NCBI RefSeq assembly: GCF_029543085.1
Contig: NZ_CP119967.1
Coordinates: 2,568,501 to 2,632,500 of the forward strand
Length of the DNA stretch: 64,000 nucleotides
Origin: Pseudomonas sp. A34-9
Lineage (GTDB): Bacteria; Pseudomonadota; Gammaproteobacteria; Pseudomonadales; Pseudomonadaceae
Reading direction: 5' to 3'
Part shown: one piece after another, positions 4,282-54,033 of the stretch
Numbering within the stretch: the first letter of the stretch is position 1
Layout: the number at the start of each line of letters is the position of its first letter
Translations under genes and position numbers: made by a program
Notes under the pieces: model-generated
Seen by the model: the letters and a program-made list of their open reading frames with translations, nothing else
Told to the model about the DNA's origin: nothing
Databases searched by the model: none

Positions 4282-5588
4282 AGGGGATGTAGGGGGAGTT
4301 TCAGTTCCGCACACAACCCGCCACCCTCGCGGTTGCTCAAAGTCAGTGAGCCGCCCAACGCCATGGCCAGTTGCTGGGCGATAGCCAGCCCCAGTCCGGT
4401 GCCGCCGGTATCGCGATTACGCGAGTTTTCCACGCGGTAGAACGGTTGCAGCACTTGCGCCAGTTCGGATTCAGCGATGCCCGGCCCTCGATCCATCACG
4501 GTGATCGCCAGGCTGCCCTTGTTGGCTTCGACCCACACTTCGGCGGCGCCGGCGAATTTCAGCGCGTTGTCGGTCAGGTTCACCAGAACCCGGCGCAAGG
4601 CATGGGGCCGAGTGTCGATGACCGCCGCGCTCTTGCCGACCAGGTTCACCTGCTTGCCCATGTCCTGATAGTCGAATACCAGGCTTTCGAGGAAGGAATC
4701 CATGTTGGTGCGGCGGCTTTCCTCGGTCGAGCCATGGATGCTGCGGGCATAAGCCACGCCTTCGCGCACCAGATGCTCCATCTCGCTGAGGTCATTCCAC
4801 AGTTTGTCTTTCTCGGCGGAGTCGTCCATGAACTCGGCGCGCAGTTTCATCCGCGTGATCGGCGTTTGCAGGTCATGGGAAATCGCCGCCAGCAGTTGCA
4901 TGCGCTCTTTGAGGTAGGCCGCGATGCGCGCCTGCATCGCGTTGAATGCTCGCGCGGCGTAGACCACTTCGGTGGGGCCGCTTTCGTCGAGGTTGATCGG
5001 GTGGGCGTTGGGGTCAAGGGTTTCCACGGCGTTGGCCAGCCGGGTCAGGGGGCGGACCGCAATGCGCACCGCCAGCCAGGTGCAGGCGAGCATCAGCGCC
5101 AGTTGGCCGAGCAAGACCACCGGCAACCAGGGCAACAACGGGGCCATGGCGGGGCGCACGTCGATGGTCACCGGGCTGCCGTCGCTCAGGCGCAAATGGC
5201 CTTGAAAGTGTTTCTTCGGCCCGGGAATATCGGTGAAGGTCAGCGGATAGCGTTCACCGATGGCTTCCGTGATCGAAGTGACAGCCACCGGCACATCACC
5301 GGCCTCGATCGGCGTGCCCGGCTCGCCTTCGCTCAACAGGTAGCCGTAATTGGCTCGTGCCAGACGCGTGAGCCAGTCGGGGCGCTCTTCGGCGGGCAGG
5401 CGATCGAGGATTGCAATCGCCGTCGAGACGTCGGTTTCCAGATTGCCGAGCATGGTGTTTTTCGCACTTTGGTAACGCTCGTAATACTGCGCGCCGAACG
5501 ACAGCGCCTGGGCGAGCAGCAGGCCGATCAGGAAAATCAGCGACAGGCGCGAGGCGAGGGTGCGCGGCCAGTGCAGATTGATGCTCAT
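4278..5588 (-). CDS. Membrane sensor histidine kinase
   Basis: The 436-residue protein has a transmembrane segment at about 11-31, a periplasmic sensing region of roughly 120 residues, a second transmembrane segment near 158-178, a HAMP linker, a HisKA domain with the phospho-accepting His238 in AAISHDLQTP, and a HATPase domain with the N box (LVNLTDNALKF), DRGPGI and GTGLGLAI. It ends with a stop codon supplied by the adjacent palindromic repeat. Its start overlaps the stop of the response regulator gene by 4 bases. The signal is unknown; neighbours (MNIO pair, DipZ-like thiol protein) point to metal or redox stress at the envelope. Confidence 0.92.
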   Translation of the reverse strand: MSINLHWPRTLASRLSLIFLIGLLLAQALSFGAQYYERYQSAKNTMLGNLETDVSTAIAILDRLPAEERPDWLTRLARANYGYLLSEGEPGTPIEAGDVPVAVTSITEAIGERYPLTFTDIPGPKKHFQGHLRLSDGSPVTIDVRPAMAPLLPWLPVVLLGQLALMLACTWLAVRIAVRPLTRLANAVETLDPNAHPINLDESGPTEVVYAARAFNAMQARIAAYLKERMQLLAAISHDLQTPITRMKLRAEFMDDSAEKDKLWNDLSEMEHLVREGVAYARSIHGSTEESRRTNMDSFLESLVFDYQDMGKQVNLVGKSAAVIDTRPHALRRVLVNLTDNALKFAGAAEVWVEANKGSLAITVMDRGPGIAESELAQVLQPFYRVENSRNRDTGGTGLGLAIAQQLAMALGGSLTLSNREGGGLCAELKLPLHPL

Positions 5589-6325
5589 GCCGGGGCACCG
5601 AGGATCTCGACCGGCAGCGAGAACACGTAACCTTCGCTGCGCACGGTCTTGATGTAGGCCGGCTCGCGCGCATCATCGAGCAGACGCTGACGCAAACGGC
5701 TGACCAGCAAATCGATGGAACGGTCGAACAGATCCGCGTCACGGCCTTGGGTCAGGTTGAGCAGTTGATCGCGACTGAGCACCCGTTGCGGGTGATCGAG
5801 AAACACCCGCAGCAAACGGTATTCGGCGCCGCTGAGGGCGACCATGGTGCCGTCCTTGTCCAGCAGGTGACGGGCCGAAGTGTCCAGCTGCCAACGGCCG
5901 AAGGCGAGCAGTCGACCGGCTTCGGTGACCACCAGATTCGGCGGCAGCATGCGCGTGCGACGCAGCACGGCGTTGATCCGCGCGAGCAATTCGCGGGCGG
6001 CGAAGGGTTTGGTCAGGTAATCGTCGGCGCCCATTTCCAGGCCGATGATGCGGTCGGTTTCATCGTTGCGCGCGGTCAGCATCAACACTGGCGTGGCCTT
6101 TTGTTTGCCCACGCGCAGTTCACGGCATAACTGCAGGCCATCGTCGCCGGGCATCATGATGTCGAGCACGATCAGGTCGACGGTGTTGGCTTCAAGAAAG
6201 CTGCGCATCTGCCGGCCATCGGCGACCACCGTGGTGCGCAGGCCGTTTTTCTTCAGGTAGTTGCCAACCAGTTCGCGGATCTCGCGGTCGTCGTCGACGA
6301 TGAGAATGTGATCGACATGGTCCAT
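5585..6325 (-). CDS. OmpR-family response regulator
   Basis: The 246-residue product has a receiver domain with acidic residues DDD at 11-13, the phospho-acceptor Asp55 in LDIMMPG and the conserved Lys in YLTKPF, followed by an OmpR-type winged helix (LSGAEYRLLRVFLDHPQRVLSR region, VRSEGYVF near the end). The start at 6325 is preceded by AGAGG; an in-frame extension upstream lacks a ribosome site. It is cotranscribed with the kinase (4-base overlap). It probably binds the TGTATC-N4-TGTATC boxes at 2477 and 6398-6481, the latter also lying in its own upstream region, which suggests autoregulation. Confidence 0.93.
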   Translation of the reverse strand: MDHVDHILIVDDDREIRELVGNYLKKNGLRTTVVADGRQMRSFLEANTVDLIVLDIMMPGDDGLQLCRELRVGKQKATPVLMLTARNDETDRIIGLEMGADDYLTKPFAARELLARINAVLRRTRMLPPNLVVTEAGRLLAFGRWQLDTSARHLLDKDGTMVALSGAEYRLLRVFLDHPQRVLSRDQLLNLTQGRDADLFDRSIDLLVSRLRQRLLDDAREPAYIKTVRSEGYVFSLPVEILGAPA

Positions 6326-6397
6326 CGGGTTCGAGCCTCTATCAAAGGGGAATGCCGAGCAGTCTATCGAGCCTGCTGCGGCTCGCCTGCCTGCCTT

Positions 6398-6413
6398 TGT
6401 ATTGCAGTGTATC
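6398..6413 (+). promoter_or_regulatory. Direct repeat TGTATT-N4-TGTATC, candidate regulator box
   Basis: This is a near-match to the TGTATC-N4-TGTATC box, with hexamers at 6398 and 6408 and one mismatch. It lies 73 bp upstream of the response regulator start and could serve the regulator's own promoter. Confidence 0.5.
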
Positions 6414-6465
6414 TGCCGTGACAACGGATACATGAGCACGCAAAAACGCGGTTATTTCAGGGTTT

Positions 6466-6500
6466 TGTATCGCTGTGTATCCACTGCTGGCCGGGATACA
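6466..6500 (+). promoter_or_regulatory. Inverted pair of TGTATC boxes between divergent promoters
   Basis: A perfect TGTATC-GCTG-TGTATC direct repeat at 6466-6481 faces an inverted copy at about 6494-6508 (GGATACACAGCGAT), giving a large palindrome in the 297-bp gap between the response regulator and the DUF2790 gene. The pattern matches the box upstream of the MNIO operon. It is the likely operator for the divergent regulator and DUF2790-DipZ transcription units. Confidence 0.6.
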
Positions 6501-6622
6501 CAGCGATGGAAACACGGCTTTTCCTGACACAGACGCGATACCTGGCGGGCCTCAAATAGGCTCCATCGAGGCCCTCACCGATCGCCTCGGCTCAAACCCA
6601 CTGAAGCCTTGAGGAATACGCC

Positions 6623-6886
6623 ATGAGCAACAAATCCGTAATCGCCGCCTGCCTGTTTGCCGCCCTGAACATCTGCACGCTGTCGGCCCGCGCCGAAGCC
6701 GATGTCACCCCGCAAACCTACACCTACGGCACCCACCTGGATATCCAGAAGGTGATCTCGCTGAAACAGGACAACTCGGTGACGTGCGGCATTGTCCAGG
6801 CGCGCATGACTTATCTCGATTCGACCGGCCAGACCCGCGTGCTCGATTACAGCAAATTTGCCGACGGCTGCCACAACGACAACTGA
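6623..6886 (+). CDS. DUF2790 secreted small protein
   Basis: The 87-residue protein has a signal peptide of about 24 residues ending at SARA-EA, then a DUF2790 domain with YTYGTHLDI and a short cysteine pair (VTCGIV, DGCHND) that could form one disulfide in the periplasm. DUF2790 proteins are common small stress-linked proteins in Pseudomonas of unknown biochemical role. GAGGAA sits upstream of the ATG. It heads an apparent operon with the next small protein and the DipZ-like gene, behind the TGTATC palindrome. Confidence 0.85.
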   Translation: MSNKSVIAACLFAALNICTLSARAEADVTPQTYTYGTHLDIQKVISLKQDNSVTCGIVQARMTYLDSTGQTRVLDYSKFADGCHNDN

Positions 6887-6932
6887 GTCTTCAACGGCAA
6901 CCAGGCCAACTCTTTATAGAAGGAACAACACC

Positions 6933-52918: not shown

Positions 52919-53443
52919 TCAGAAGCTGACGTCGGCACAGTTGATCAGTCGGGCGAAGGCCGCGCCGAGGGTGGCGTTGTGATGGTCAATGATGGCTTGG
53001 GCTGGCAGCGCTGGCGTGTCCATGCAAGTGTGGGCATCGGCGACCAGCAGCGGTTTGAAACCTGAATCGGCGGCGGCGCGGCAGGTGCTGTCGATGCAGA
53101 ACTGGCTTTTCATGCCGACTATATATAGGTCGTCGACTTGCGCGGCGCTGAGTTGCTGCGCCAGCCCGGTAGCGTGGAAGGCGTTGGGGCGGGATTTATC
53201 GAAGAGGGTGTCGATTTCAGCGTCCAGTTCAAGCGCTGGCAGCAATTGCCAGAAGGGGCTGCCGGCGGCGATTGGCGAACCCTGCGGGCCGGTGTGGCGC
53301 ACGGCGAAGATCGGCACTCGATGCTGGCGAGCCTGAGCGATCAGGTGGCGGATATTGGCGAGCACCCGTTCGCCGTCGTGGGGCGTTTCCGGCCCGTGGA
53401 ACAGACCGACCTGCATATCGATGATCAACAGTGCTGCGGGCAT
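52919..53443 (-). CDS. Isochorismatase-family cysteine hydrolase
   Basis: The 174-residue protein has the family triad: Asp in LLIIDMQVGLF, Lys near DKSRPNAFHATGL, and Cys in GMKSQFCIDSTCRAAAD. It could hydrolyse isochorismate, nicotinamide or another amide. The start at 53443 is preceded by AAGGAG. The 5' region (53444-53653) shows a promoter, a short Trp-containing leader frame and an intrinsic terminator, so expression is probably controlled by attenuation. Confidence 0.9.
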   Translation of the reverse strand: MPAALLIIDMQVGLFHGPETPHDGERVLANIRHLIAQARQHRVPIFAVRHTGPQGSPIAAGSPFWQLLPALELDAEIDTLFDKSRPNAFHATGLAQQLSAAQVDDLYIVGMKSQFCIDSTCRAAADSGFKPLLVADAHTCMDTPALPAQAIIDHHNATLGAAFARLINCADVSF

Positions 53444-53480
53444 GGTGGTTCTCCTTGATTGCTGCAGATGCCGCACGGAC

Positions 53481-53522
53481 GGGAGAAACAACAAGGCCCC
53501 GTCCATTGCTGGCGGGGCCTTG
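53481..53522 (-). terminator. Terminator hairpin, candidate attenuator
   Basis: CAAGGCCCCG pairs with CGGGGCCTTG around an 11-base loop and, on the minus strand, is followed by TTGTTTCT. It lies 18 bases after the stop codon of a 25-residue leader frame and about 50 bases before the isochorismatase start, the geometry of a classic attenuator. It could also end the tautomerase transcript. Confidence 0.85.
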
Positions 53523-53539
53523 GGTTTGCTGCGCTGGAG

Positions 53540-53617
53540 TTACCTCACGCGCCAACACCACGACCCGCCGGTGGCGGTTGTGGTGGTAGGGGTGAGTTGC
53601 AGCGCGCAAAGGTTCAT
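53540..53617 (-). CDS. Predicted 25-residue leader peptide with Trp-Cys-Trp
   Basis: The open frame starts MNLCALQL, continues with a Thr-rich middle and ends GGSWCWRVR followed by TAA. The two Trp codons (TGG TGT TGG) near the end are what a tryptophan-sensing leader peptide shows. Predicted transcription start falls at or next to the A of its ATG, so it may be translated leaderlessly. It lies upstream of the hairpin at 53481-53522 and of the isochorismatase gene. Confidence 0.62.
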   Translation of the reverse strand: MNLCALQLTPTTTTATGGSWCWRVR

Positions 53618-53623
53618 GGGCCG

Positions 53624-53653
53624 ATCATGCTGGCGCCGTCGCGCCACTGTCAA
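53624..53653 (-). promoter_or_regulatory. Promoter of the leader/isochorismatase unit
   Basis: On the minus strand a perfect TTGACA (53648-53653) is followed after 18 bases by CATGAT (53624-53629), two mismatches from TATAAT. The -35 box overlaps the tautomerase stop codon. The start point expected 6-7 bases after the -10 box coincides with the leader ATG at 53617. Confidence 0.6.
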
Positions 53654-54033
53654 CTGGCGTATTGAGCGATGCCTTTACCGAATGACCAGTTTTCCTTTTT
53701 TACTTCCACCAGGTTGATGAACACGTCTTCGAGGCGGATGCCCAATTGCGTGTTCAGGTTATGGGCGATGGTCTGGTACAGGGCTTTTTTCTGCTCCAGG
53801 GTTCGACCTTCGTTGAGGCTGATCTGGATGATCACCAGACGCTCACTGCGCTGGATGCCCAGGTATTGCGGGTCGAAGATGAAATGCTCGCCGTCGTGTT
53901 CGGCGAGGATCTGGAAGTTGTCATGCTCCGGGACATTGATCGTGCTGCGCATGGCGGCGTAGATCTGCTCGCCGATGCGTTTGGCGAAAGTGGGATCGGT
54001 GTGCTGTTTGATGTCGACGCGGACGAGGGGCAT
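53650..54033 (-). CDS. Tautomerase-family (4-oxalocrotonate-type) protein
   Basis: A 127-residue protein starting MPLVRVDIKQHTDP, so processing would expose the catalytic Pro1 of the tautomerase superfamily. It also holds LVIIQISLNEGRTLEQKKALYQTIAHNL and EDVFINLVEVKKENWSFGKG, typical of the longer double-domain-like members. It may isomerise enol/keto acids or dehalogenate. Its 3' end overlaps the promoter of the leader unit, and it is not clearly cotranscribed with its neighbours. Confidence 0.87.
   Translation of the reverse strand: MPLVRVDIKQHTDPTFAKRIGEQIYAAMRSTINVPEHDNFQILAEHDGEHFIFDPQYLGIQRSERLVIIQISLNEGRTLEQKKALYQTIAHNLNTQLGIRLEDVFINLVEVKKENWSFGKGIAQYAS

Follow-up and report, generated by a model that had tools for sequence, protein, structure and literature searches.

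The isochorismatase-family hydrolase gene studied here very probably lies behind a transcription attenuator in which a translating ribosome gauges the supply of charged tRNA-Thr. It was found in a window of 64,000 nucleotides (the whole stretch of DNA analyzed, numbered from its first letter) from Pseudomonas sp. A34-9, whose genome comprises 6.54 Mb in a single contig. As read from the window and its relatives, the locus has a conserved architecture and a run of threonine codons, and these codons coincide with the first pairing segment of an attenuator. We infer from this the start of transcription, translation of the leader, a response to threonine, and the direction of control. Transcription would start at or beside the leader ATG, and ribosomes would begin on a leaderless message. 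With threonyl-tRNA ample, the ribosome would clear the Thr codons, the run would pair with a Gly-Gly segment (1:2), and the terminator (3:4) would form and halt transcription before the hydrolase gene. With threonyl-tRNA short, the ribosome would stall on the run and cover segment 1, segment 2 would take the 5′ arm of the terminator (2:3), and this antiterminator would let transcription continue into the hydrolase gene. Threonine charging would then be a testable physiological cue for a hydrolase subfamily found in Pseudomonas, some Burkholderiales, and some Enterobacterales.

Layout of the leader and its hydrolase gene

All elements lie on the minus strand. A sigma-70-like promoter, TTGACA-N18-CATGAT (53624..53653; −35 at 53653-53648, −10 at 53629-53624, spacer of 18 nt), matches the consensus at 10 of 12 positions; the search that returned it gave 1 site versus 0.5 ± 0.7 in shuffled sequences, which is weak on its own. 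The predicted leader ORF, MNLCALQLTPTTTTATGGSWCWRVR (53540..53617; 25 codons plus stop), opens with an ATG at 53617, 6 nt past the end of the −10. Its codons 11 to 14, ACC ACC ACA ACC (53576..53587), encode four consecutive threonines and, judged by Thr conservation and a stall scan, would constitute segment 1 of the attenuator. The core of segment 2, GGCGGG (the Gly-Gly codons; 53564..53569), is near-invariant in alignments A1 and A2 and has two alternative partners in predicted folds: segment 1 by default and segment 3 as antiterminator. That partner in segment 3, CCCGCC (53511..53516), is the 5′ arm of the putative terminator and is invariant in the 56 sequences of A2, its presence being a requirement of the leader-finding script. 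We read the hairpin AAGGCCCCGCC-AGCAA-TGGACGGGGCCTT with its interrupted T tract (53486..53521) as an intrinsic terminator; the hairpin proper (53521-53493) begins 18 nt after the leader stop and has the tail TTGTTGTTT, with a G interrupting the T tract, and it was absent from the list produced by a simple terminator scan. The candidate regulated gene encodes an isochorismatase-family (cysteine) hydrolase of 174 amino acids (52919..53443; Pfam PF00857, 4.9e-35), with its ATG at 53443 and a Shine-Dalgarno (SD) sequence, AAGGAG, at 53456-53451. Upstream, and outside the unit, lies a gene for a tautomerase-family protein (53650..54033, from a domain match). The initial annotation had named the promoter, the 25-codon frame, the hairpin, and the hydrolase gene, and all four are present in the window where it placed them; it had overlooked the four consecutive Thr codons and the 6 Thr among the 25 residues.

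The leader region (176 nt) is predicted to fold at −81.9 kcal/mol versus −60.2 ± 3.9 for shuffled sequences (z = −5.5; 0 of 200). The case for a real unit is carried by conservation across the sequences compared, relatives having the promoter, the frame, the codon run, and the hairpin as well; an attenuation architecture with a terminator hairpin before this gene, as originally proposed, is supported. The same comparison leaves next to no probability for there being no switch at all, that is, for the hairpin being the terminator of the tautomerase gene, accompanied by an unrelated promoter and a chance ORF. The tautomerase stop codon does overlap the −35 and has the hairpin about 130 nt downstream, yet in relatives the unit is found with the hydrolase away from the tautomerase (in genomes G045 and G134 the tautomerase end is about 0.6 to 0.7 kb from the leader), and from genus to genus the frame, codon run, and promoter spacing are kept; this conservation with the hydrolase rules the arrangement out as fortuitous.

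The start of the message was examined in 104 distinct leaders found before hydrolase genes. In 94 of them a gap of 6 or 7 nt separates the end of the best −10 from the leader ATG, a peak absent when the same scan was run before the hydrolase ATG or in shuffled upstream sequences; 30 of 34 leaders preceding GNAT acetyltransferase genes have a gap of 6 nt. Of the 104 leaders, 1 has an SD-like motif ahead of it, versus 78 of the 104 hydrolase genes. The −10 spacing indicates that the leader message is probably leaderless, as had been suspected from the window, with transcription predicted to start at the leader ATG.

Threonine codons, tryptophan codons, and simulated stalling

Tryptophan had been put forward as the amino acid sensed, from a Trp-Cys-Trp motif in the window leader. 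Among the 104 distinct hydrolase-leader peptides (18 to 31 residues), however, 76 lack Trp, and every one contains at least 4 Thr (range, 4 to 10; 6 Thr in 51). The densest six-residue stretch holds 6 Thr in 33 leaders, 5 in 61, 4 in 9, and 3 in 1, the script having demanded 3 Thr in 6 residues and no candidate having failed that demand; a cluster of codons for a single amino acid in a short ORF, its translation predicted, was found in all 104. The five codons ending the run encode Thr in 69, 89, 90, 98, and 100% of leaders. Each of them varies most at its third base, as expected if the amino acid matters. Trp occurs in 28 leaders, twice in 4 of these; the tandem Trp codons proved not to be conserved in relatives, Trp-Cys-Trp being unique to the window and Trp-Trp occurring in two others. 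With assumed residue frequencies of 5% for Thr and 1.5% for Trp, the chance of a Thr run of at least 4 in the window leader is about 0.00015, and that of at least 2 Trp is 0.05. In the predicted fold of the window, Trp20 (TGG), Cys21 (TGT), and Trp22 (TGG) pair with codons 10 to 13, mostly ACC/ACA Thr codons; on this model, the Trp and Cys codons reflect the Thr codons with which their arm of the stem pairs.

Stalling was simulated by placing a ribosome footprint codon by codon on a transcript ending after segment 3 and computing the probability that leader sequence occupies the terminator's 5′ arm, P(2:3); the standard footprint extended 12 nt downstream, and 9 and 14 nt were also run. In the window, P(2:3) was 0.00 without a ribosome, intermediate ahead of the run (0.38 to 0.75 at codons 3 to 8), and 0.84 to 0.88 with codons 9 to 13 in the A site; it fell to 0.33 at Thr14 and to 0.00 at both Trp codons; near the stop, it was 0.20 at codon 25 and 0.72 there with the 14-nt footprint. 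The 9- and 14-nt footprints moved the peak by about one codon and left the Trp codons at 0.00. Across the 104 leaders, mean P(2:3) was 0.90 with the A site 3 to 4 codons before the last Thr, 0.04 to 0.07 at 3 to 9 codons past it, and 0.20 to 0.36 at 10 to 12 past; without a ribosome the median was 0.03 and the mean 0.23, the antiterminator forming ribosome-free in some leaders. Ten leaders found through their proteins gave a similar mean profile (0.81 to 0.86 at 1 to 5 codons before the last Thr, 0.03 to 0.15 at 3 to 9 after), with an irregular profile in L317 and a ribosome-free antiterminator in L312 (0.82), L321 (0.84), and L320 (0.62). An exclusive antiterminator freed by stalling at Thr codons was thus found in silico, with exceptions. 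Stalling at Trp-Cys-Trp, for which the window motif and the scattered Trp residues of other leaders would speak, is scarcely credible as the control of this gene: it is refuted by the relatives without Trp codons, and the stall scan with its three footprint sizes and the pairing of the TGG and TGT codons with the Thr region rule it out as well.

The terminator hairpin has a mean energy of −21.9 kcal/mol in the 104 leaders, and at least 4 T follow within the next 8 nt in 95 of them. Covariation had been proposed as a check on the hairpins; the terminator stem shows compensatory pair types at two positions (C-G, G-C, and A-U at one; G-C and A-U at the other), and none was found for the antiterminator helix, where own pairs scored −16.45 versus −16.35 kcal/mol for swapped ones and 510 of 2,000 permutations were as good. 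RNAalifold on the 28 near leaders gave no pair changed on both sides. The antiterminator arms, GGCGGG:CCCGCC, are both near-invariant, and swapping partners between leaders is free of cost; in these alignments the pairing is supported by invariance and position, not by covariation. A different competing structure suggested earlier, TGTTGGCG with CGCCAGCA, is not conserved, as the 27 other sequences of A1 differ from TGTTGGCG there.

A Thr run followed by Ala might instead stall ribosomes under peptidyl-transferase inhibitors such as chloramphenicol, which would make the leader a drug sensor and the hydrolase, GNAT, or MFS pump behind it a resistance gene. The kinds of gene behind the attenuator frame (hydrolase, GNAT, and one MFS transporter) and the ending SSMTASGG of most GNAT leaders fit such a sensor. 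So does the literature: chloramphenicol stalling is strongest after Ala, Ser, or Thr codons (PMC12121999), and in Pseudomonas aeruginosa the PA5471.1 leader peptide is proposed to attenuate transcription at armZ, with induction by ribosome-targeting drugs (PMC12057347). Yet one or two residues should, by our reasoning, suffice for a drug, whereas Thr residues in the varying numbers given above are kept; Phe, Leu, Ile, Pro, or Val interrupt the Thr run in some leaders; and the hairpin GACCGCC-GGCGGG encodes the T-A-x-G-G following the run, which places that motif under constraint as RNA. We consider a drug sensor improbable and retain attenuation by charged tRNA-Thr.

Relatives and the link between leader and hydrolase

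When 199 genomes of the genus were searched with DNA, 100 had some match, many to the tautomerase end or the hairpin alone; the loci from this search keep the promoter, ATG spacing, frame, and hairpin. Covariance model R1, built from 28 of these loci, matched 186 of 398 genomes of the genus. In a family sample it matched 18 of 148 genomes, and reading of L133-L144 placed true leaders in 4 of 19 genera, the window's own included; L140-L143 look by eye like chance terminators. L144 looks like a decayed leader without an ATG. Besides the source genome, R1 gave one weak match, L145, judged to be chance, in an order sample of 145 genomes, and a second model, R2, gave 10 weak matches in 9 genomes and no other true carrier in a class sample of 369 (L300-L303 and L305-L308 resemble chance terminators or coding sequence rich in Thr; L304 is a partial match of 50 nt). 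Strict filters left the class sample with about one genome per genus, and it missed several carrier genera named in the other searches, so it sets no bound on the distribution. A motif scan of named genomes, which required ACCGC, GGCGGG, and CCCGCC, found at least 118 stretches, with 80 loci given; the loci, at least 80, are mostly from Pseudomonas, with Caballeronia, Paraburkholderia, Cupriavidus, Rugamonas, Pseudogulbenkiania, Andreprevotia, and a Paucimonas bin. R1, R2, and the scan motif were built on these leaders, and their matches are no independent proof of the Thr run; the plasmid set found through proteins (see below) is.

Loci L002-L031, L063-L122, L133-L152, and L155-L234 were pooled, and L033-L062, L123-L132, and L278-L286 were left out; the first 60 R1 loci fetched came from among the matches listed. 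Dropped from the pool were L001 (a duplicate of the window), L025 and L029 (no script match), L226 (match at the locus end), and L140-L145. The downstream gene was recognized in 177 of 181 pooled entries (hydrolase, 135; GNAT, 40; MFS, 2), and the entries where it was not (L081, L093, L105, and L157) were also dropped, as were 9 rows (8 hydrolase, 1 GNAT) that the script failed to match, although a Thr or Met leader is visible in them by eye. After removal of duplicates and script misses, 151 leader sequences stood: 115 before hydrolase, 35 before GNAT, and 1 before MFS genes. The script set the leader start by where the Thr run lies or, in GNAT loci, at the ATG giving a length nearest 20. L081, L093, and L105 are attenuators whose downstream gene is broken or not recognized; together with the decayed L144, they suggest loss of the attenuator in some lineages.

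A protein search covering 119 genomes of the genus returned 77 places. They fall into two groups, with 42 close homologues (46 to 100% identity over nearly the whole protein) and 35 distant ones (33 to 42%, plus one partial match of 46%). The leader is present at 40 of the 42 close homologues (33 among the matches listed for R1 and 7 of 9 fetched); the two without it are in G078 (L278) and in G015 (L282), the latter with a hairpin remnant only. Nine of the 35 distant places were read, and none has the leader. A plasmid search, not selected on the leader and using the Pseudogulbenkiania hydrolase as query, returned 69 records at 1e-20, of which 15 loci were read. A Thr-run leader and then a hairpin precede 10 of the 11 homologues with at least 50% identity (from Paraburkholderia, Burkholderia cenocepacia, five Pantoea, Duffyella, Rahnella, and Pseudomonas silvicola), the Aeromonas plasmid homologue having no Thr-run leader, and 0 of the 4 read with less than 45% identity. 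Thr runs thus persist in Burkholderiales and Enterobacterales. Eight of the 10 plasmid leaders (L314-L321; e.g., MIKSVHPATTVTTTGTFGGVGVSVTGS) have diverged nearly throughout; what they keep is a Thr run, a Gly-Gly segment, and a hairpin. An intrinsic terminator between ORF and gene was read in the window and the 104 leaders and not in these eight, where no T tract follows the hairpin; intrinsic termination is therefore doubtful there, and another form of control may operate. In one Pantoea locus (L315, 3098-3217), a TPP riboswitch match lies just downstream of the hydrolase, before thiamine genes.

Related leaders stand before other genes. A second class, of about 20 residues, Met-rich and resembling MTYTRRMNMMCSSMTASGGP, precedes GNAT acetyltransferase genes in Pseudomonas (L063, L064, L104, L161, L163, L188, and others). 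Its 31 distinct peptides, with starts set by rule, have the same −10 spacing and a GGCGGG/CCCCGCC frame; their constant length of 20 leans on the start rule, with which the −10 spacing reported above agrees. Such leaders are possibly Met-sensing or nascent-peptide switches. Nine consecutive Thr codons occur in a leader before an MFS transporter gene (L084, L085, L153 at about 5449-6918, and L154; genome G078). The block sits on two contigs of G078; at 1e-50 the protein turned up in 1 of 149 genomes, and a relative was not found in plasmid records at 1e-40. It is weakly nearest to MdtH/YdeE, and its best NCBIfam matches are efflux pumps, far below cut-off. In L299 (about 1501-1683), one of the weak R2 matches of the class sample, a 26-residue ORF, MIRLTINKRTMKTKTLLAGSRLSVRV, and a terminator-like hairpin lie directly before an ORF that by eye resembles aspartate-semialdehyde dehydrogenase, possibly a separate attenuator.

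The hydrolase, its possible role, and known attenuators

The hydrolase has the family domain shared with EntB/PhzD-type proteins, and its four NCBIfam matches all fall below cut-off, so that no characterized equivalog was assigned; the tie to chorismate status proposed in the initial annotation is unsupported, no equivalog cut-off being reached. In alignment A3, D9 and K83 are invariant and C116 is nearly so, residues that we take to be the Asp-Lys-Cys catalytic triad expected of the family. The best PDB sequence match, 2a67, is named only as a family protein; others include biuret hydrolase, nicotinamidase, and N-carbamoylsarcosine amidohydrolase. The family spans amide, urea, and lactone hydrolases, and one member, HqiA, is a known lactonase, an indication that the family can open lactones (PMC5430456); by analogy, lactone or amide substrates are plausible for the window hydrolase.

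The hydrolase is no known Thr biosynthesis gene. At the hom-thrC locus of the source genome such a leader was absent from the 300 nt read, and R2 gave no match, which indicates that the leader is no organism-wide threonine control. As a tentative assignment, the enzyme may be an amidase or lactonase that acts in detoxification or salvage and is of benefit once threonine charging breaks down. We suggest defense or salvage because the attenuator frame also accompanies GNAT and MFS genes and because natural threonyl-tRNA synthetase inhibitors exist (obafluorin, from Pseudomonas fluorescens, and borrelidin; PMC10619133). More speculatively, and with considerable doubt on our part, the locus could be a starvation-triggered detoxification switch of plant- and soil-associated proteobacteria: failing tRNA-Thr charging would serve as the alarm for a natural product or antimetabolite blocking threonyl-tRNA synthetase (as obafluorin and borrelidin do) or threonine synthesis, and the hydrolase would destroy that compound. 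It is just as doubtful that, as such a scheme would have it, the frame was refitted as a Met-rich leader before GNAT and once as a 9-Thr leader before MFS. Were detoxification the function, these attenuators would be antimetabolite sensors, and the search for a substrate would narrow to threonine-related amides, lactones, and synthetase inhibitors.

Action of the leader peptide, or of the short terminated RNA, in trans as well would follow a precedent in Sinorhizobium, where a trans function of the leader peptide peTrpL is reported (PMC7298713); we hold this to be very improbable here, conservation of the peptide being poor outside its Thr-Ala-Gly-Gly core. An attenuator in cis can be set beside several known systems, and our search of the open-access literature found no description of this leader before an isochorismatase-family gene, although priority is not certain. 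The window hydrolase has its domain family in common with biuret hydrolase, YcaC, and the AHL lactonase HqiA and differs from them in lying below every NCBIfam equivalog cut-off. The PA5471.1/armZ system is alike in having a leader peptide proposed to attenuate transcription in Pseudomonas and unlike in being drug-responsive and controlling an anti-repressor. The Rfam Thr leader model, RF00506, scored the window at 24.7 bits versus a cut-off of 55 and gave a gathering-level leader match in none of 9 relatives' loci. The trpL attenuator of Sinorhizobium meliloti (peTrpL) likewise has an attenuator leader ORF, and that ORF is leaderless; the system is built on Trp codons and trp genes. Unlike the source of the window, its host is an alphaproteobacterium. 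With thrL of Escherichia coli (RF00506) the window shares a short Thr-codon-rich ORF, competing hairpins, a terminator, and the stalling logic; it differs in that its leader is probably leaderless and without an SD, stands before one hydrolase gene rather than thrABC, and falls below the Rfam cut-off. Set against thrL, the locus would be an attenuator that senses threonine without governing its biosynthesis, and it would do so in a gammaproteobacterium from a message that is probably leaderless.
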